Assembly: GCA_030630935.1 (NCBI GenBank)
Contig: DAOVMD010000088.1
Coordinates: 1 to 9,312 of the forward strand
Direction of reading: 5' to 3'
Origin: Candidatus Mcinerneyibacteriota bacterium
GTDB lineage: Bacteria; AUK180; JAQVHJ01
DNA length: 9,312 bases
Below are positions 215-9,081 of this stretch, in pieces (position 1 is the first letter of the stretch; each line of letters opens with the position of its first letter). The notes under the pieces are model-generated. The model was given only the letters and a program-made list of their open reading frames with translations, had not been told where the DNA came from and searched no databases. Both the position numbers and the translations under genes were made by a program.

Positions 215-505
215 CTAGATTACTTCTTCAAGAGGCAGGAGGAAGGCTTTGATTCCTTCAGTTTTAAATTTATCTTTTAATTCCTTCAATTTCAACTGCA
301 GTTTTTCATATTCCTCATTAGTAAGTGAAACCAAAATCATATTATTTTTCCCTGGCCAGATGTGGGATTCGAAATGTTTCCCGGATGATTTTCCGGAGCC
401 GTGTACTTGCGGGATTAGTGTAAATGATTTCAAACCGCAATCATTTAAACATTCCTCAATTTCATCTCTTAATGCAAAGTTAAAAACTATCATTAACATT
501 TTCAT
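215..505 (-). CDS. PII-like protein of the PG0541 transporter-associated type
   Basis: This is a 96-residue protein with a predicted ferredoxin-like (beta-alpha-beta-beta-alpha-beta) layout like the PII signalling superfamily: strand 1-10, helix 12-22, T-loop-like segment about 33-54, strand 55-61, helix 62-83, last strand 85-93. The loop carries Gly36, Ser37 and Gly38 and a Trp50-Pro51-Gly52...Asn54 patch. I recognise this pattern from the small PII-like proteins annotated as 'PG0541 transporter-associated', which sit beside RND efflux genes. It lacks the canonical PII tyrosine uridylylation loop, so a GlnB/GlnK nitrogen role is not supported. The ATG is preceded by GGAG at 8 nt, and the gene lies 24 nt after the RND stop, so it should be co-transcribed with the pump. 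A role as a soluble trimeric sensor or modulator of the pump, possibly binding a metal or small ligand, is inference. Confidence 0.75.
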   Translation of the reverse strand: MKMLMIVFNFALRDEIEECLNDCGLKSFTLIPQVHGSGKSSGKHFESHIWPGKNNMILVSLTNEEYEKLQLKLKELKDKFKTEGIKAFLLPLEEVI

Positions 506-529: not shown

Positions 530-3500
530 TTAATCGAGTGTAATACTATCTAATTCCTTCATTGGTTTTGATTCAAGTTCAATAATTTCTTTTTTTGTTA
601 AGCCATTCATGTTCGCATATAAGACCGGTATAATGAACAATGTAATTATACTTGATGCGAGCAGACCGCTAATAACAGCAATCCCGAGCGGGTTCCAACT
701 TTCAGAACCTTCAGATTTACTCAGAGCTAAGGGTAAAAGTCCAAATATTGTAGTAAACGAAGTCATCAGGATTGGTCTTAACCTGTGTTTTCCAGCAGTT
801 ACAATTGCAGCAAATAAAGGCACTTCTCTCGCTCGCAGGATATTAATATAATCAACCAGGACAATTCCATTATTCACAACAATTCCAATCAGTATAACTA
901 ACCCTACTAATGAGTTTATATTTAAGGTATGCCCTGTAAGGAATAGGCCATAAACAACTCCGACCACGCCAAAAGGAATAGTAAACATAATAATAAATGG
1001 TGACTTGAAAGATTCAAACTGTGCTGCCATAACCATATAGACCAGGATTAATCCAATAACAAATGCCATACCTAAATCGCCAAATGATTCTTCCATTGAT
1101 TCAATTGAACCGGAAATCTCGACTTTTACATCAGCAGGTATATATAACTTTTTTATACGACCCTCAAGAATATCCCTAATCTTACCAAGATCAATCTCTC
1201 CTGTTTGATTCGCTTCAACTATTACGATCCGGGACCTGTCCTTATGTTCAATTGCAATCGGGCCTGTCCCGAATTCTAAAGTTGCAAAATTCGAGAACGG
1301 AACCCTCTTTCCCTGATAATTAGTTATATAAATATCTTTCAGGTTAAATGGTTCTTCAGAATATTCTTCTTTTAACCTCATAAAAATATCGTATTCATTA
1401 TCATTCTTTCTAAACTTCCCTACTTCATAGCCATAGTATAATTTTCTGATAGTTTCAGCAATTGAATAAATATTTAAACCGAAATTTGCAGCTTTTAATC
1501 GATCTATTTTAATTATCACTTCTTCTTTTGCTTTATCTCTTGTAATTGATACATTTTTTAACCCTTCTATCCCATCCATTTCAGTTTTAATCTGAAAGGC
1601 TAACTTATCAGTCTCATCAAAACTCTCACCTATAATCTCGACTTGAATGGATTTACCGCCTCGACCTGAAATCAGGGCTGCAATAGGATCGACATCGGAG
1701 ATATTCAGCTTAACAATGTTAGGGATGTTCTTTCCAACTTCTTCTCGTATAATATTGGCAATCTCTTTTGACGACCTGCGATCAACTTTCTTCGCATCAA
1801 GGTAAATTGATATATTAATAATATTAGTCGCTTCTTTAAAACCCATCTGGGAAAAACCATCACTGGGTCCGAGATTAGTCATGATAGATTTTTCTTCCGG
1901 AACAAATTTTTCAATTAACTCTTCAATTTGAATTGCAGTCTCAAATGCAGCATCCAAGTTAGTGGAAGTTGGAAGTTCAATTGAAAGAAAAATCTGACCC
2001 TGGTCTTCTTCAGGTAAGAATTCAGAACCTATATATTTTTGTTGAACCAGGAATATTGCAGATACAAACATTAATAAACAAATAGAATAAACAATTAGCT
2101 TATGTTTTAAAGCACTAATTAATATAGATTCATAAATCTCAGTAATATGATGGAAAAATGTAACCTTCTTCTTCTTTTTCTTTTTCATTTTAAAGTATGG
2201 TTTCAGCAGTTTCGACGCCAGCATTGGAGTTAGGGTAAGAGATGTAAACAAAGAAGCTAATAAAACAAAAATTAAAGTCTTTCCAAGTTGAGAGAAGAGT
2301 TCTCCTACAAATCCCCTTGTAAATATTAGCGGGAGGAATATAACGATTGTAGTTAGAGATGATGCGACAACTGCCATGCCGACCTCGGACGGAGCGTGGA
2401 TTGAAGCTTCTTTTAATGATTCATGCCGTTCATAATGATGCCTGTGAATATTATCAAATATTACAATTGCATTATCAACCACCATCCCTATCGCAATTGC
2501 AATTGAAAATAAACTAATCATATTAATTGAAAAGTCTGCTAAATACAGAAAGATAAAAGCTGCCATAATTGAGAATGGAAGAGTAAATGCGATTATAAAA
2601 CTACCTCGAATCTGACCAAGGAAAACCCAGATAACCAAAATTACCAGGAGCCCGCCCAAAAGAATAGTACTTGTTAAACTTTTAATTGTATCCCGGAGAT
2701 AATCAGAAAGGTCAAGGATAATTTTTGCTTCGATTTCAGGTGGAAGTTCCTTTTTGATTTGTTTAAATTTTTTCCAAAGTCTATCTGACAACTGAACAGG
2801 ATTCTCCCCCGATTGTGATTGAATAAATACCAAAATCCCATCCTTCTGATTCAGGCGGAACATTCTTTCTAATTTCTCTTTACCTTCATAAACTTCTGCG
2901 ACATCTTTTAATTTAATTAACTTCGGCGAATTACTGTATAGTACAAGTTCCCTGATTTCATCGATAGTTTTAAATTCTCCGGGGACCCTAATTAATAATT
3001 CCTTTTGACCATATTTAACTTTTCCACCGGGTAATGAAACATTATTTGCTTCCAAAGCTGAGATAATAGAATTAATCGATATCTTATAAACTTTCATCTT
3101 CTCATAATCAAGATCAATTCGAACCTGTTTCTGACGACCGCCTCTTAAGGCAACTAACCCGACTCCCGGAACACGCTGTAGTGGTTTAACGATCTTATCA
3201 TCAACCGTTTCATAGAAATTTGGATAGTCATCCGGGGCGTTTACACCAATAAAAAGAATTGGAGCTTGTGACAGATCAAACTTAAAAATAATCGGGTCTT
3301 CCGCATCTTCGGGAAGGAATCTTTTAATGAACTCTACTTTATCCCGGATATCATTTTGAGCTTCAACAAGGTCAACTCCCCATTCAAAATGTAAAACTAC
3401 TGATGATACATTCTCTTCTGATGTGGATGTTACAGTTTTAACATTTTGAATGGTTGATAAAGCTTCTTCAATAGGTTCAGTGATCTTTTTCTCGATATCC

Positions 3501-3670
3501 TCTGGAGATGCACCGGGGTAAATTGTGATGACTGTAATTGTTGGAATTGTGATATCCGGCATTAAATCAACCGGAAGATTTATCAATGCAAAAATCCCTC
3601 CGAGTAGAATTAAAATGAAAAACATTAGAGTTGTAACAGGTTTGGTTACGCTAATCTCAGGTAACTTCAT
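530..3670 (-). CDS. RND-family efflux permease (HAE/AcrB-like inner-membrane pump)
   Basis: At 1046 residues this is a full-length resistance-nodulation-division transporter, the proton-driven trimeric inner-membrane pump of a tripartite efflux complex. TM1 is at about 11-31 and is followed by the typical PDI...YPGASPEDIE entry of the first periplasmic porter domain. TM2-TM6 span about 333-488, including the TM4 motif GMVVDNAIV (395-403). A second periplasmic domain follows TM7 (about 525-545). TM8-TM12 lie at about 866-1018, with TM10 motif GIVVNNGIVLVDY. Of the AcrB proton-relay residues, Asp407 is kept (D399), but Asp408 and Lys940 are both Asn here. This combination looks like a subfamily trait rather than damage. 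A run of seven lysines (496-502) lies in the cytoplasmic loop after TM6. The ATG follows the adaptor stop by 4 nt, with GGAG inside the adaptor's last codons, indicating translational coupling. The substrate cannot be read from sequence; a drug, lipid or metabolite is more likely than metal, since the CusA methionine motif is not evident. Confidence 0.95.
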   Translation of the reverse strand: MKLPEISVTKPVTTLMFFILILLGGIFALINLPVDLMPDITIPTITVITIYPGASPEDIEKKITEPIEEALSTIQNVKTVTSTSEENVSSVVLHFEWGVDLVEAQNDIRDKVEFIKRFLPEDAEDPIIFKFDLSQAPILFIGVNAPDDYPNFYETVDDKIVKPLQRVPGVGLVALRGGRQKQVRIDLDYEKMKVYKISINSIISALEANNVSLPGGKVKYGQKELLIRVPGEFKTIDEIRELVLYSNSPKLIKLKDVAEVYEGKEKLERMFRLNQKDGILVFIQSQSGENPVQLSDRLWKKFKQIKKELPPEIEAKIILDLSDYLRDTIKSLTSTILLGGLLVILVIWVFLGQIRGSFIIAFTLPFSIMAAFIFLYLADFSINMISLFSIAIAIGMVVDNAIVIFDNIHRHHYERHESLKEASIHAPSEVGMAVVASSLTTIVIFLPLIFTRGFVGELFSQLGKTLIFVLLASLFTSLTLTPMLASKLLKPYFKMKKKKKKKVTFFHHITEIYESILISALKHKLIVYSICLLMFVSAIFLVQQKYIGSEFLPEEDQGQIFLSIELPTSTNLDAAFETAIQIEELIEKFVPEEKSIMTNLGPSDGFSQMGFKEATNIINISIYLDAKKVDRRSSKEIANIIREEVGKNIPNIVKLNISDVDPIAALISGRGGKSIQVEIIGESFDETDKLAFQIKTEMDGIEGLKNVSITRDKAKEEVIIKIDRLKAANFGLNIYSIAETIRKLYYGYEVGKFRKNDNEYDIFMRLKEEYSEEPFNLKDIYITNYQGKRVPFSNFATLEFGTGPIAIEHKDRSRIVIVEANQTGEIDLGKIRDILEGRIKKLYIPADVKVEISGSIESMEESFGDLGMAFVIGLILVYMVMAAQFESFKSPFIIMFTIPFGVVGVVYGLFLTGHTLNINSLVGLVILIGIVVNNGIVLVDYINILRAREVPLFAAIVTAGKHRLRPILMTSFTTIFGLLPLALSKSEGSESWNPLGIAVISGLLASSIITLFIIPVLYANMNGLTKKEIIELESKPMKELDSITLD

Positions 3671-3674
3671 AATC

Positions 3675-4595
3675 TTACTCCGGCTTTAATTCTTCTTCTT
3701 TGATAATTCTCACGTCATCTCCATCTTTAACCGATTGAATTCCTTTTAAAATAATTTTCTCATCACCTGTTAAGCCTTCAAGAACTTCAATGAACACACC
3801 TTCCTGCATCCCTGTCGTTATTTGAGTCTTCTTAACTTTTACACCATCTTCAACTACAAATACAAATTGCAAATTATTAAACTTAAAAATCGAATCCTTT
3901 GATACTGCAAGGACATTGAGCTTTTTATTAAATATAATCTTTATCTTTGCATAACTCCCGGGTTTTAATTCATGCTTTGGATTTTGTAAAATTAACTGGG
4001 CTTTAAAAGACCTGGTTGTAGGATCTAAAACAGGGAAAATCTTTTTTATCTTCAGGTTGGAGTTCTTGTATTCTGACGCAGGAATATTTAAAATTACCTG
4101 TTTGTTTTGAATACCGGGAACAAAATCTTGCTCGGGAATATAAAAAGTTACTTTTACTTTATCAATCTGAAAAATTGTAAACACCGGTGCTTGAGGATAT
4201 ACATTATTCCCTTCATCGGAATGAATCTTATAGATAAAACCGTTGGACGGTGATTCCAATTCAAAGTTCTTATATTTAAATCCCGTTATGTCCCTATCAA
4301 TCGTAGCAAGAATTTTTCCCTGCTTAATGAAATCGCCCTCTTCTACATAAGTCTTAATAAGTTTTCCGGGAACTTTCGGAAATACATTTACTATTTTATC
4401 AGGTTCAATCTCACCAATATATTCTATTGCTTCATGAAGATCCAGTTTATTGATTCCTGTAACAATCACAGGGGTTCTAAATTTTTCCGGCGGCTTTTCC
4501 TCAGGCGGATTAAGTTTCTTAATGACCCGAAACGTAACTCCAATTGCTAAAAATATCAGGATAATAATAAAAACTATCTTTATTGTTTTTTTCAT
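3675..4595 (-). CDS. Periplasmic adaptor (membrane fusion protein) lacking the alpha-hairpin
   Basis: This 306-residue adaptor links the RND pump to the outer-membrane channel. Residues 4-22 form a hydrophobic N-terminal anchor or uncleaved signal. They are followed by a proline-rich linker (29-37). The lipoyl (biotinyl-like) domain is split as usual into two halves, 67-100 (VPGKLIKTYVEEGDFIKQGK) and 111-144 (SPSNGFIYKIHSDEGNNV). A beta-barrel domain (about 146-225, with the DPTTRSF and LKPGSYAKI motifs) and a membrane-proximal domain (about 230-300) come next. Between the lipoyl halves there are only about 11 residues instead of the long coiled-coil hairpin of AcrA-type proteins, which explains the short length. 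The spirochaete adaptor BesA is a known hairpin-less example. The ATG has a strong GGAGG 5 nt upstream. The gap to the tolC-like gene is 19 nt and to the permease 4 nt. Confidence 0.92.
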   Translation of the reverse strand: MKKTIKIVFIIILIFLAIGVTFRVIKKLNPPEEKPPEKFRTPVIVTGINKLDLHEAIEYIGEIEPDKIVNVFPKVPGKLIKTYVEEGDFIKQGKILATIDRDITGFKYKNFELESPSNGFIYKIHSDEGNNVYPQAPVFTIFQIDKVKVTFYIPEQDFVPGIQNKQVILNIPASEYKNSNLKIKKIFPVLDPTTRSFKAQLILQNPKHELKPGSYAKIKIIFNKKLNVLAVSKDSIFKFNNLQFVFVVEDGVKVKKTQITTGMQEGVFIEVLEGLTGDEKIILKGIQSVKDGDDVRIIKEEELKPE

Positions 4596-4614: not shown

Positions 4615-5913
4615 TTATTTACCCAGGGCATATTCCAATTCAATTAAATTTACCTGGTATTCATATTGACTTCTTGCTTGTTCAACTCGTGCTTGAGTAA
4701 GGGTAAATTGTGCGTTCATAAGATCTAAAGACGTCACCATTCCGGATTCATAAGCAGTTTGAACAATTTCAATATACCTTACTGCCTGTTTAATATTTTC
4801 ATCTGACGATTCTAAAATCCGCTCTGAACTTTGAAGGTTTAAATATGCACTTTTGATTTGAATTGATATTCCATTCTGAAGAGAGACAATAACAGGTTTA
4901 ATGGATTCCTTCCTTGATTTCGCTTCTTGAACTGCTAACCGGGTTTTGAAACCTTTAAAAAGTGGGATTGAAATAACGAAGGCTGTATTCCAGGAAGCAC
5001 TCCAAGTATCCGGGTCAAGATCCAATTTAGTATTAGTTTCAGAATAACCATAGGAAAATATTAATGAAGGGTAATACCCTGATTTTGCAATATTAACTGA
5101 AAAATCAGCGATTTCTTCCGTTAATTTTAAGGTCTGAAGTTCTATCCTGGTAGAGTATGCTTCGTTAAGCAAGTCCTTAAGCGATTGATGAATACTCCTG
5201 GTTTCAAAAGCACCTTGAATTTCCAAGTCTGTGAAAATTGGTAAATTAAGCTGTGTAAGAAGGAAAGATTTTGTTAATGCCAGATTATTCTCTGCGCGAT
5301 ATAGTGATGGTCTTAAATTGGAAATCTGAACCTGAGCTCTTAAAACATCAAAATCAGATGCCTCACCGGATTCAAAACGAACTTGTGCAATTTTTAATTG
5401 TTCATTTGCCAACTCAAGGGACTCCTGATAGATTTTTATGAATTGCTCCGCGATAAGAACATTATAAAAACTTTTCTTAACATTATATTTCAACTTATTT
5501 TCTCTTAATTTAATTTCATTCTCTTTTATCTTGATACTTATATCTGACATCTTTAATCCATAATATCTTAAGCCGCCAAGAAATAAGGGTTGGGTTACAG
5601 AAAGAGATGCTGAATACGAATCCTCCGCCAAACCAAACTCAGCAGCACCAGGCCCAAACTGCTCGGCCATCAGCTTCATTGATAAAGGAAAACCTTGCTT
5701 TAAATATAATCCCTCAGCTGAAATTTCCGGATAAAATGCTGAATAAGATTGTAATTTTTGTAACTTGGCCTGCTTTAATTCTTCCTTTAAAACTTTTATG
5801 ATACTGTCATTCCTGAGAGCAATCTCAATACTGGTTTCTAATGTTAAAGTTTCAGAAGAAATATAAATAGAAAGTATTATTAATAAGAAAAAGGAAATTA
5901 AAATCTTTTTCAT
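4615..5913 (-). CDS. TolC-family outer-membrane efflux channel
   Basis: About 432 residues with an N-terminal Sec signal (MKKILISFFLLIILSIYISS, cleavage near the following Glu-Thr). No lipobox Cys is present, so it is probably not a lipoprotein. Two OEP repeats follow, each of long amphipathic helices: the first contains the LEQA-like LETSIEIALRNDS start, and each has the typical AQxxFESGEAS/AQTAYESGMVTSLDLMNAQ helix-turn signature. The reading frame also has an in-frame GTG at 5919 that would overlap the tetR stop as GTGA. I chose the ATG at 5911-5913, 2 nt past that stop, because GGGAAG lies about 6 nt before it while the GTG has the purine run directly against it; coupling to tetR translation is likely either way. 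In the pump it forms the trimeric exit duct across the outer membrane. Confidence 0.92.
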   Translation of the reverse strand: MKKILISFFLLIILSIYISSETLTLETSIEIALRNDSIIKVLKEELKQAKLQKLQSYSAFYPEISAEGLYLKQGFPLSMKLMAEQFGPGAAEFGLAEDSYSASLSVTQPLFLGGLRYYGLKMSDISIKIKENEIKLRENKLKYNVKKSFYNVLIAEQFIKIYQESLELANEQLKIAQVRFESGEASDFDVLRAQVQISNLRPSLYRAENNLALTKSFLLTQLNLPIFTDLEIQGAFETRSIHQSLKDLLNEAYSTRIELQTLKLTEEIADFSVNIAKSGYYPSLIFSYGYSETNTKLDLDPDTWSASWNTAFVISIPLFKGFKTRLAVQEAKSRKESIKPVIVSLQNGISIQIKSAYLNLQSSERILESSDENIKQAVRYIEIVQTAYESGMVTSLDLMNAQFTLTQARVEQARSQYEYQVNLIELEYALGK

Positions 5914-5915
5914 TC

Positions 5916-6533
5916 TCACTTCCCGGTAGACTTTAAACTCTGGAGAAAATATTTATCAATTTGTTTAAATATCTTCTCAGGATCCATTTTCTGCTTCTTA
6001 AGAATCGCATATGACATGAAAATGTTCACTTGAGCAAATAGCATCAAGGAAAGTGATTCTGGGTCAGCATTTGAAATGATCAACTTCTCTTCTTTTGCAA
6101 TCTTAAAATAATCCGTAAGTTCCGATATCTGTTTGAAGAAATTCTCAATTGCCTTTTTCTTCTGTTTCTCTGATAATTTTTTTACCTGATCTTGATAAGC
6201 AAAAACAATAAATAAATCTTGCTTATTGGAAAAGAACTCCAGAATCTTCTTTGTGCGAACGCGAATCTTTTCAAATGCATTCTGTTCTTTTTCTGTATAT
6301 TTATCTACATACGCCTTCATCTGACTTCGTATAGAATTAAGCGACTCAAGATAAATCTCTTCTTTCGTTTTAAAATAATAATATACCAAACCCTTAGCAA
6401 TTTTTGCATTTTTTGCAATCTCTTCAATTGTGGTCTTAGTATATCCTTTCTTAGAAAATATCTTAATTGCAGAATGAATTATTTTCTGTTGTTGTTTCGC
6501 TTTGTCAATCTTTGATTTCTTTCTTGCAGACAT
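5916..6533 (-). CDS. TetR/AcrR-family transcriptional repressor of the efflux operon
   Basis: A 205-residue regulator. Residues 18-63 form the TetR DNA-binding domain: helix AIKIFSKKGY, turn TKTTIEEIAKNAKIAKG, and recognition helix plus the hallmark LVYYYFKTKEEIYLESL. The remainder is an all-helical ligand/dimer domain with no strongly conserved motif, as usual, and is very lysine-rich. The ATG is preceded by AAGGAG at 4 nt. The gene is first in the operon and lies directly downstream of an 18-bp palindromic operator, so autorepression together with repression of the pump is the expected logic. The inducer is probably a pump substrate (inference). Confidence 0.92.
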   Translation of the reverse strand: MSARKKSKIDKAKQQQKIIHSAIKIFSKKGYTKTTIEEIAKNAKIAKGLVYYYFKTKEEIYLESLNSIRSQMKAYVDKYTEKEQNAFEKIRVRTKKILEFFSNKQDLFIVFAYQDQVKKLSEKQKKKAIENFFKQISELTDYFKIAKEEKLIISNADPESLSLMLFAQVNIFMSYAILKKQKMDPEKIFKQIDKYFLQSLKSTGK

Positions 6534-6557
6534 AATGCTCCTTTCTCGTTTTTTTGC

Positions 6558-6575
6558 TGACTGACCAGTCAGTCA
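6558..6575. promoter_or_regulatory. TetR operator palindrome
   Basis: TGACTGACCAGTCAGTCA is a perfect palindrome of 8-bp arms around a CA centre. TTTTTGC (6551-6557) and GCAAAAA (6577-6583) extend it imperfectly, offset by one base. It lies 25-42 bp before the tetR start codon and begins about 3 bp after the predicted transcription start. Palindromes with TGAC...GTCA arms are typical of TetR-family operators. A bound repressor here would block promoter clearance. Confidence 0.85.
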
Positions 6576-6584
6576 AGCAAAAAC

Positions 6585-6613
6585 ATTATATCAGAAAATC
6601 AAAAGGTTGTCAA
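6585..6613 (-). promoter_or_regulatory. Sigma-70 promoter of the tetR-efflux operon
   Basis: On the minus strand TTGACA (6608-6613) and TATAAT (6585-6590) are separated by exactly 17 bp. Both hexamers match consensus fully. Transcription should start near 6578, just before the palindromic operator. A fully consensus core promoter is what one expects where control is mainly by repression. Confidence 0.88.
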
Positions 6614-6939: not shown

Positions 6940-6961
6940 GGAAAAGGCGTTTGCCTTTTCC
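6940..6961 (-). terminator. Hairpin at the stop codon of the HhH-GPD-like gene
   Basis: GGAAAAGGC (6940-6948) and GCCTTTTCC (6953-6961) form a perfect 9-bp stem with a 4-nt loop. It starts on the last base of the TAG stop (6961-6963) of the minus-strand gene. The T-run is inside the 3' arm rather than after it, so this is not a textbook intrinsic terminator. It could still end transcription or protect the 3' end of the message. Confidence 0.4.
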
Positions 6962-7905
6962 TAATTATCTATTGTAATATAATTATCAAGAATTTCTACT
7001 TTTCCCGTTGTACATAGATCTTTTACCGGACACCCGGCTTTATTTCTACAATCGTTACCTACTTTTCCGGGTGCGCATCCAAATTTTGATAAAAACCATA
7101 AATAAGGTATAAATTCAACCAGGGTCTCATCAAATTCCGTATTTCTTTCTTCATATACAGTTTTCCAGTATTCAGCAAGTAATTCCTCGAAATCAACTTG
7201 AAATGATGTGATCTTCCCTGAAATTGCCCCGGTCATAAATGTAGCCCTTACAATATGAGATCCTATGGGTACAGGGAGATTTTCAAAATTACTCACGGTT
7301 AAATCTGAAATTGTTTTAAGGCGGGTTAACCAGATTATTACCTTTCGTTCTTTAGAATACTCAGGAAAACAATTTGTATATGGAGTTTCAGAAAAAGCCT
7401 TCAATAATTTCAATGCATCATTATCAAAAGCTTCAAATAATTTTTTTATATCAGAATCATATTTCTTCAGAACTTTTGCCATTTTAACCCAGATATAAAG
7501 GTCGTTCTCTCTTACAGAGCTTCGATCTATATTTTTTAACTTGCCAACATTCCATTTTTTAATTTCTGACGGGGTCACAAATAATTTGTACTTCAAAAGA
7601 TCCTGCTCTAAATCCGAAGGCAAAACTTCCAGGACTTTTTCAGGATTAAAAAGATATTTTGTCTTTGGATCGGAATAGGTCATTCTCGCAGAATTCCAAA
7701 GTAGTTCTTCCTTCCTGTGATATGCAATCCCTGAAACAAAAGTTAAGAATAAAAGATGTTCATTACTCCCTGAAACCATCTCCTCAGGTAAAACTCTATA
7801 TGGAAATACTTTAGAATAAATTCCTTCTCGGTGATTATAGGCATCTCTTAATCTCTTAATTACTAAGATACCACGATCATAATCCTTCTGAATATTTAAG
7901 TCCAT
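6961..7905 (-). CDS. Uncharacterised protein with C-terminal four-Cys motif, possibly HhH-GPD (endonuclease III) related
   Basis: About 314 residues, soluble, mostly helical, no signal peptide. Numbered from an in-frame GTG at 7911, the C-terminus carries C279, C288, C294, C300 (spacing x8, x5, x5) ending in CPVKDLC, much like the Fe4S4 loop of endonuclease III/MutY (C-x6-C-x2-C-x5-C) but with different spacing. The preceding PVPIGSHIVRATFMTGAI (213-230) resembles the PVDxHVxRV...TG stretch of HhH-GPD glycosylases, with Gly where the catalytic Asp is expected. I see no clear helix-hairpin-helix LPGVGxKTA. A role in DNA or RNA base chemistry is therefore only a suggestion; it could also be a non-catalytic Fe-S relative. 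I prefer the ATG at 7903-7905, because AGGTGA lies just before it, while the GTG has no Shine-Dalgarno. It is a single-gene unit with its own promoter. Confidence 0.6.
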   Translation of the reverse strand: MDLNIQKDYDRGILVIKRLRDAYNHREGIYSKVFPYRVLPEEMVSGSNEHLLFLTFVSGIAYHRKEELLWNSARMTYSDPKTKYLFNPEKVLEVLPSDLEQDLLKYKLFVTPSEIKKWNVGKLKNIDRSSVRENDLYIWVKMAKVLKKYDSDIKKLFEAFDNDALKLLKAFSETPYTNCFPEYSKERKVIIWLTRLKTISDLTVSNFENLPVPIGSHIVRATFMTGAISGKITSFQVDFEELLAEYWKTVYEERNTEFDETLVEFIPYLWFLSKFGCAPGKVGNDCRNKAGCPVKDLCTTGKVEILDNYITIDN

Positions 7906-7943
7906 ATTCACCTGTTTAAAATCATTTCAATTTAACTTTGAGT

Positions 7944-8526: not shown

Positions 8527-9081
8527 ATGAATGTAAAAGGTTCCGCAATTCTTTCATCTATAAACTACATCAAGGACAAATTTGGTGATGCCGGGCTTGA
8601 TAAAATTAAGGAAAATTTAACTGATGATGAAAGGGAGATTCTCTCTGATATAATTCTTCAGCCAATATGGTATCCATTTAAACTATATGTTAGCCTTACA
8701 CATAAAATTGATTCGATCCTTGGAATAGGAGACTTAAGTACAGCAAAGGATCTCGGGAAATATGAAGCTGAACATGATCTGAAAACTATTTATCGAATTT
8801 TCTATGTACTCGGGTCACCTGAATTCATTATTAAGCAATCGGCTAAACTCTTCACTACCTATTTTGAAGATGGTGACTTAAGAATAGCTGAATCGGATAA
8901 AAATAACGCAATTGCAGAGCTTTATGATTTCCCTTCTCTTGACCAGGCAGTACTACATCGGATTTCAGGATTTATGGAGAAAACTCTTGAGTTAAGTGGT
9001 GGGAAAAATCCTACTGCAGTGGTTCGACTTGAATTCAGGGATGCAAAGAAAATAGCCGTCTTTATTTGTCATTGGGAATAG
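8527..9081 (+). CDS. DUF2378/TIGR02265-like protein of unknown function
   Basis: A 184-residue soluble protein. The N-terminal VKGSAI...I.YIKDKFGDAGLDKI.E, the central WYPFKLYVSLTHKID (48-62), DLGKYEAEHDLKTIYRIFYV (75-94) and GSPEFIIKQSAKLFTTYF (96-113) all fit the pattern I associate with DUF2378, a family best known as multiple paralogues in Myxococcota. The C-terminal VRLEF...AVFICHWE (165-184) resembles the closing beta-strands of V4R/HNOB-type sensory folds, with Cys181 and Trp183, so a ligand-binding or signalling role is conceivable but unproven. The ATG is preceded by a strong AAGGAAGGTGA 3 nt away and by its own promoter. No neighbour on the same strand suggests an operon, and no terminator is seen after the stop. 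Repeats surround it on both sides. Confidence 0.6.
   Translation: MNVKGSAILSSINYIKDKFGDAGLDKIKENLTDDEREILSDIILQPIWYPFKLYVSLTHKIDSILGIGDLSTAKDLGKYEAEHDLKTIYRIFYVLGSPEFIIKQSAKLFTTYFEDGDLRIAESDKNNAIAELYDFPSLDQAVLHRISGFMEKTLELSGGKNPTAVVRLEFRDAKKIAVFICHWE

Follow-up and report, generated by a model that had tools for sequence, protein, structure and literature searches.

The window (the whole 9,312-nucleotide stretch of DNA that was analysed) encodes an RND pump whose periplasmic adaptor lacks the alpha-hairpin, in sequence and in structural model, and has a 12-residue loop in its place. The same operon encodes a dedicated TolC-type outer-membrane channel (OMF) whose length is standard, and a transporter whose docking domains are likewise standard, as judged from sequence and models.

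The adaptor and its linker

The adaptor gene (3675-4595, minus strand) runs from ATG to TAA and specifies a 306 aa protein of the RND_mfp family, which scores 158 bits against TIGR01730, above the curated cut-off of 94.9 (Pfam and NCBIfam profiles). The gene is otherwise intact, as a sequence-only reading of the window had held. The protein is modelled with a membrane anchor and with membrane-proximal, beta-barrel and lipoyl domains. Residues 2-28 (4512-4592, minus strand) form an N-terminal helix by AF2 and by sequence, without a lipobox cysteine; the protein has no cysteine at all, and the helix is probably an uncleaved anchor. The first lipoyl half covers approximately residues 67-100 (4296-4397, minus strand; Pfam Biotin_lipoyl matches 77-141 and Biotin_lipoyl_2 matches 69-100), and the second approximately residues 113-144 (4164-4259, minus strand; placed by Pfam, the BesA alignment and AF2). 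Between them lies the linker RDITGFKYKNFE, residues 101-112 (4260-4295, minus strand), which replaces the alpha-hairpin, aligns with BesA without a gap and has the pattern R-[DE]-x-x-G-x-x-[YF]. The sequence-only reading had joined the lipoyl halves without a hairpin by about 11 residues (4263-4295); the junction is as it described, and its length was off by one.

Could the hairpin lie elsewhere in the protein? The AF2 model of the adaptor, which rests on an alignment of 25 relatives and has a mean pLDDT of 91.4, shows no hairpin at any site. Its sole long helix is that of residues 2-28; the remainder is beta, with other helices of a few residues at most, and a hairpin at another position is therefore ruled out. 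Structure prediction of the adaptor alone thus confirms the absence.

The loop is conserved as well as short. Among the 46 sequences with a 12-residue linker, R101 is kept in 39, D or E at 102 in 41, G105 in 38 and Y or F at 108 in 44; G105 ranks 21st and R101 25th in conservation among the 306 positions. Because 46 adaptors share a loop of exactly 12 residues, no lengths between 12 and 57 occur and these four positions are conserved, the loop is probably under selection.

Operon and regulatory region

The genes are read from the minus strand in the order TetR, OMF, adaptor, RND and PG0541/P-II-like, with gaps that are short or replaced by overlaps. The first encodes a TetR-family regulator (5916-6533, minus strand; Pfam TetR_N) and the second the OMF (4615-5919, minus strand; Pfam OEP, 207.6 bits), for which ATG at 5913 is a likelier start codon than GTG at 5919. 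The RND permease of 1046 aa (530-3670, minus strand) is of the HAE-1, AcrB/MdtB-like type; its ACR_tran match (Pfam, 869 bits) covers residues 5-1019, i.e. a full-length permease, and MdtB is its best PDB match. The last gene encodes a PG0541-family P-II-like protein (215-505, minus strand; NCBIfam NF045581, 95 bits, and Pfam P-II). The complete, coupled operon with its own TolC-type channel proposed earlier is thus upheld, and the P-II-like gene is one that the earlier description did not name. Of 39 hairpin-less operons, 13 have a P-II-like gene of this sort after the RND gene, and of 17 sampled hairpin operons none has; one is present, even so, in an operon of Parabacteroides distasonis whose linker is 57 residues long.

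Upstream of tetR is a promoter of perfect consensus, TTGACA-17-TATAAT (6585-6613, minus strand), of which 0.01 is expected by chance. The -10 box is closely followed by a palindrome (6550-6583, minus strand), the probable TetR operator, and the operon is probably repressed by its own TetR, with autorepression included. Elsewhere in the window, open frames at 6961-7911 (minus strand, 316 aa) and 8527-9081 (plus strand, 184 aa) have no Pfam or NCBIfam match.

Channel and transporter

Is the missing hairpin made up for by a longer channel or a taller transporter? A longer channel had been put forward from the sequence, and it is geometrically plausible. The window's OMF has two OEP repeats and helices of TolC length (Pfam, AF2), its model (pLDDT 89.5) matches TolC at Z ~30, and it keeps the tip glycines G185 and G393. 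The helix lengths of 66/42/68/40 are exactly those of TolC, and they recur in 37-40 of 40 partner OMFs. Nor are the RND transporters larger than those of hairpin pumps, since docking segments and overall length are alike in the two groups. With TolC-length helices and standard docking domains, a longer channel is not the compensation, and compensation by either partner is very improbable.

Other marks of the hairpin-less state were sought in the partners and set aside. Reviews of 2015 and 2021 suggest a disrupted OMF gate for BesC; no such general mark was found, since OMFs of hairpin operons equally lack Arg at the site that corresponds to TolC R367, and at the other gate positions no difference was seen between OMFs of hairpin-less operons and those of the small control group (n=11). 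RND columns that separate hairpin-less from hairpin pumps are scattered and confounded by ancestry.

The genomic link of channel to adaptor is strong. An OMF gene lies immediately upstream of the adaptor gene in 40 of the 42 hairpin-less loci with room to see the upstream gene, vs 11 of 27 hairpin loci, a sample of convenience (Fisher p 7e-7). The 40 are made up of 39 found by script and one locus, L156, where the OMF gene overlaps the adaptor gene by about 100 bases. For hairpin adaptors that have an RND neighbour the count is 9 of 20. These figures bear on a reading in which there is no continuous duct: the adaptor would serve the transporter only, and the OMF would work loosely or with another adaptor. 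It is true that the element known to bind the OMF is the hairpin, which is missing here, and that OMFs of both operon kinds are alike at tip and gate positions. However, in 40 of 42 loci, spread over many phyla, an OMF gene precedes the adaptor gene and often overlaps it, which is difficult to reconcile with a loose association, and in one genome (G071) the operon OMF is the only OMF. We consider the absence of a duct unlikely.

In a further genome (G119), a hairpin-less operon (L057) adjoins an operon whose adaptor has a 92-residue linker (L099). The two OMFs are 36% identical over 409 residues, and the RND gene of the second operon is split into two reading frames of 583 and 434 aa.

Spread of the short linker

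The window comes from one fragmented assembly (471 contigs, ~80% complete), and a deletion, pseudogene or assembly artefact might be suspected. The homologue in the nearest genome, 51% identical, has the same 12-residue linker, and linker and operon are the same in 7/7 genomes of the window's phylum in the set; a full hairpin at the linker site was sought in the homologues of these seven and none was found. Because the homologue and all genomes of the phylum keep the 12-residue linker, deletion, chance and error are ruled out. With identical length and motif in many other genomes as well, an artefact is already refuted, its probability being next to nil. The survey of related genomes thus bears out the earlier view of a stable design, with the short linker kept throughout the phylum. 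That view had also placed the pump outside the spirochaetes, and this agrees with the phylum count: with only 7 genomes in the set, the window's phylum is inferred not to be Spirochaetota.

In samples of 145 and 386 genomes, all full-length matches listed had short linkers. Linker lengths in 82 adaptors fall into 46 at 12 residues, 6 at 8-10 and 30 at 57-189, with none between 12 and 57; because the model used for the search derives from 12-residue sequences, more of that length are readily found, though linkers of 10 or 15 would also be let through. About 31 family-level groups, some 30 of them beyond the window's phylum, have the 12-residue form with its main motif or a close variant, nearly always in the order OMF-adaptor-RND. 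How many phyla are represented? The 145-genome sample probably contains little more than one genome for each phylum. Four phyla that were listed in full (those of G071, G142, G046 and G135) have no second genome from this sample; together with the window's own, at least five distinct phyla carry the hairpin-less form.

Some named organisms give a finer view. Treponema saccharophilum has a 12-residue linker with a BesA-like loop, and Legionella adelaidensis one of 12 residues with a different loop motif. Among the long plasmid-borne matches, those from Parabacteroides, P. aeruginosa, Criblamydia and Variovorax, with linkers that measure 54-69 residues, do not belong to the hairpin-less kind, and a scan of genome contigs gave only partial matches, in Xanthobacter. 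Two further short-linker groups were seen (L070-L075, L165, L168), one with 8-10 residues, IESNESLxxY, and one with 12 residues, QSRxxGNPPP.

Evolution

Did the hairpin-less pumps arise once? The RND partners of the 12-residue adaptors do not form one clade; this was rejected with a p-AU of 7e-47 on a quick LG+G4 tree, and the hairpin-less label changes at least seven times on well-supported branches of the RND tree. A single origin of the hairpin-less adaptors is not rejected by the adaptor data (p-AU 0.81); these data have little power, because a mixed group drawn from the RND tree passes the same test. The OMF partners as one clade are likewise not rejected (p 0.29). The RNDs of L070-L075 and L165 form a clade of their own in a tree from which Legionella is absent. 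The common linker length and motif would speak for a single origin followed by re-pairing, or for a hairpin gained and lost repeatedly.

Proposed mechanism

How might such a pump be put together? We think it rather probable that the window encodes an HAE-1 RND pump of the BesA kind, shorter than its hairpin-bearing counterparts, in which the channel is docked on the lipoyl ring, on the docking domain of the transporter, or on both. As in AcrAB-TolC, the adaptor ring would sit on the transporter; the channel would meet the lipoyl ring directly through the short loops and/or rest on the transporter's docking domain. The pump would be shorter by about one hairpin length, and the part of the adaptor in channel opening would be reduced, or the lipoyl ring would take it over. 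For BesABC, contact through the lipoyl domain, with a key part for that domain, had been proposed by Greene et al. (2013; PMC3807786). Two points count against this assembly. The BesA loop is flexible in crystals (PMC3807786), which gives no hint of a rigid element for docking, and the window's genome has hairpin adaptors, so that a mixed adaptor ring may occur in this organism. Where both pump kinds coexist in one genome, the same envelope must fit both.

The mixed ring deserves attention as an explanation in its own right: a hairpin-bearing adaptor of the same cell would supply the hairpin in trans and grip the channel. The window's genome encodes hairpin adaptors with linkers of 78, 78 and 87 residues (contigs C297, C39 and C407), and most hairpin-less genomes have further adaptors. 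On the other hand, no second adaptor gene lies within these operons. In G071 (94% complete, 1.0 Mb) a single adaptor stands beside a single OMF, and in G078 and G354 one adaptor each was detected. G100 has a second adaptor, which, as read from a profile match and part of the sequence, likewise passes over the profile's hairpin positions. Borrelia is without any other adaptor (PMC3807786). Genomes with no detected hairpin adaptor argue, within the limits of their completeness, against a hairpin in trans, which is distinctly unlikely, and the short pump with direct docking stays the preferred model.

Significance

In current models of tripartite pumps, the adaptor hairpin holds and opens the channel. 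That a hairpin-less design exists in many phyla, with ordinary channel and transporter, suggests that a pump can do without it. It is a tentative thought, and one we would not press, that hairpin-less pumps are no spirochaete oddity and represent an old and widespread second RND architecture, in which the fixed 12-residue loop is dedicated to docking the channel, a shorter pump works beside hairpin pumps in one periplasm and the adaptor has been re-paired repeatedly with different RND lineages. The contact of adaptor and channel can be approached in many systems, among them organisms with a single detected adaptor and G119, where both operon kinds stand side by side.

Part of this was already known. 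The structure of BesA is published, and Greene et al. (2013) named similar sequences that lack the hairpin in Treponema and Spirochaeta and, as a rare case, in Legionella (PMC3807786). BesABC is functional in Borrelia according to Bunikis 2008, as cited in PMC3807786, and reviews of 2015 and 2021 give BesA as the example without a hairpin. The sequence-only reading was right to see a BesA-like, hairpin-less adaptor, and its novelty is less than was implied, since Greene et al. had named others and the design occurs in many phyla. Added here are the wide distribution, the fixed loop length and motif, the strong link to a dedicated channel of ordinary length, and organisms whose detected adaptors are all hairpin-less; no published report of these was found in a search of the literature outside most subscription journals.

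Comparison with known systems

Alignment with BesA and AcrA places BesA of Borrelia closest in both sequence and fold, AcrA adding the hairpin. BesA is the best sequence match (E 4.5e-21, ~23% identity, ungapped across the linker) and the best fold match (Foldseek E 1.5e-20; Z 20.2 over 251 residues, 2.7 A), and the hairpin lengthens the chains of AcrA, MexA and MacA, which align to the adaptor model with a higher rmsd. AcrA and MexA (AcrAB-TolC, MexAB-OprM) share with the window the membrane-proximal, beta-barrel and lipoyl domains, the HAE-1 RND partner and the TolC-type channel. Their fourth domain, an alpha-helical hairpin with its tip motif, is absent from the window adaptor, for which tip-to-tip contact through hairpins is thus impossible.

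Adaptors with an 8-10-residue or a QSRxxGNPPP linker, e.g. that of Legionella adelaidensis (WP_232048495.1), also combine a short loop with an OMF-adaptor-RND operon, but their linker motif is unlike that of the window. BesA of Borrelia burgdorferi (BesABC; PDB 4KKS, 4KKT, 4KKU) has the common three-domain adaptor with a short loop for the hairpin. This loop is 9 residues by the count of PMC3807786 and 12 by the present measure, the length of the window's loop, and G and Y are kept in both; the order OMF-adaptor-RND is also common to the two operons. BesA differs in being lipidated at Cys26 (PMC3807786), whereas the window adaptor has a probably uncleaved membrane helix and lacks the anchor cysteine, and strict orthology to BesA is not claimed. 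Relative to BesABC, the window operon adds the TetR and P-II-like genes and belongs to a different phylum.
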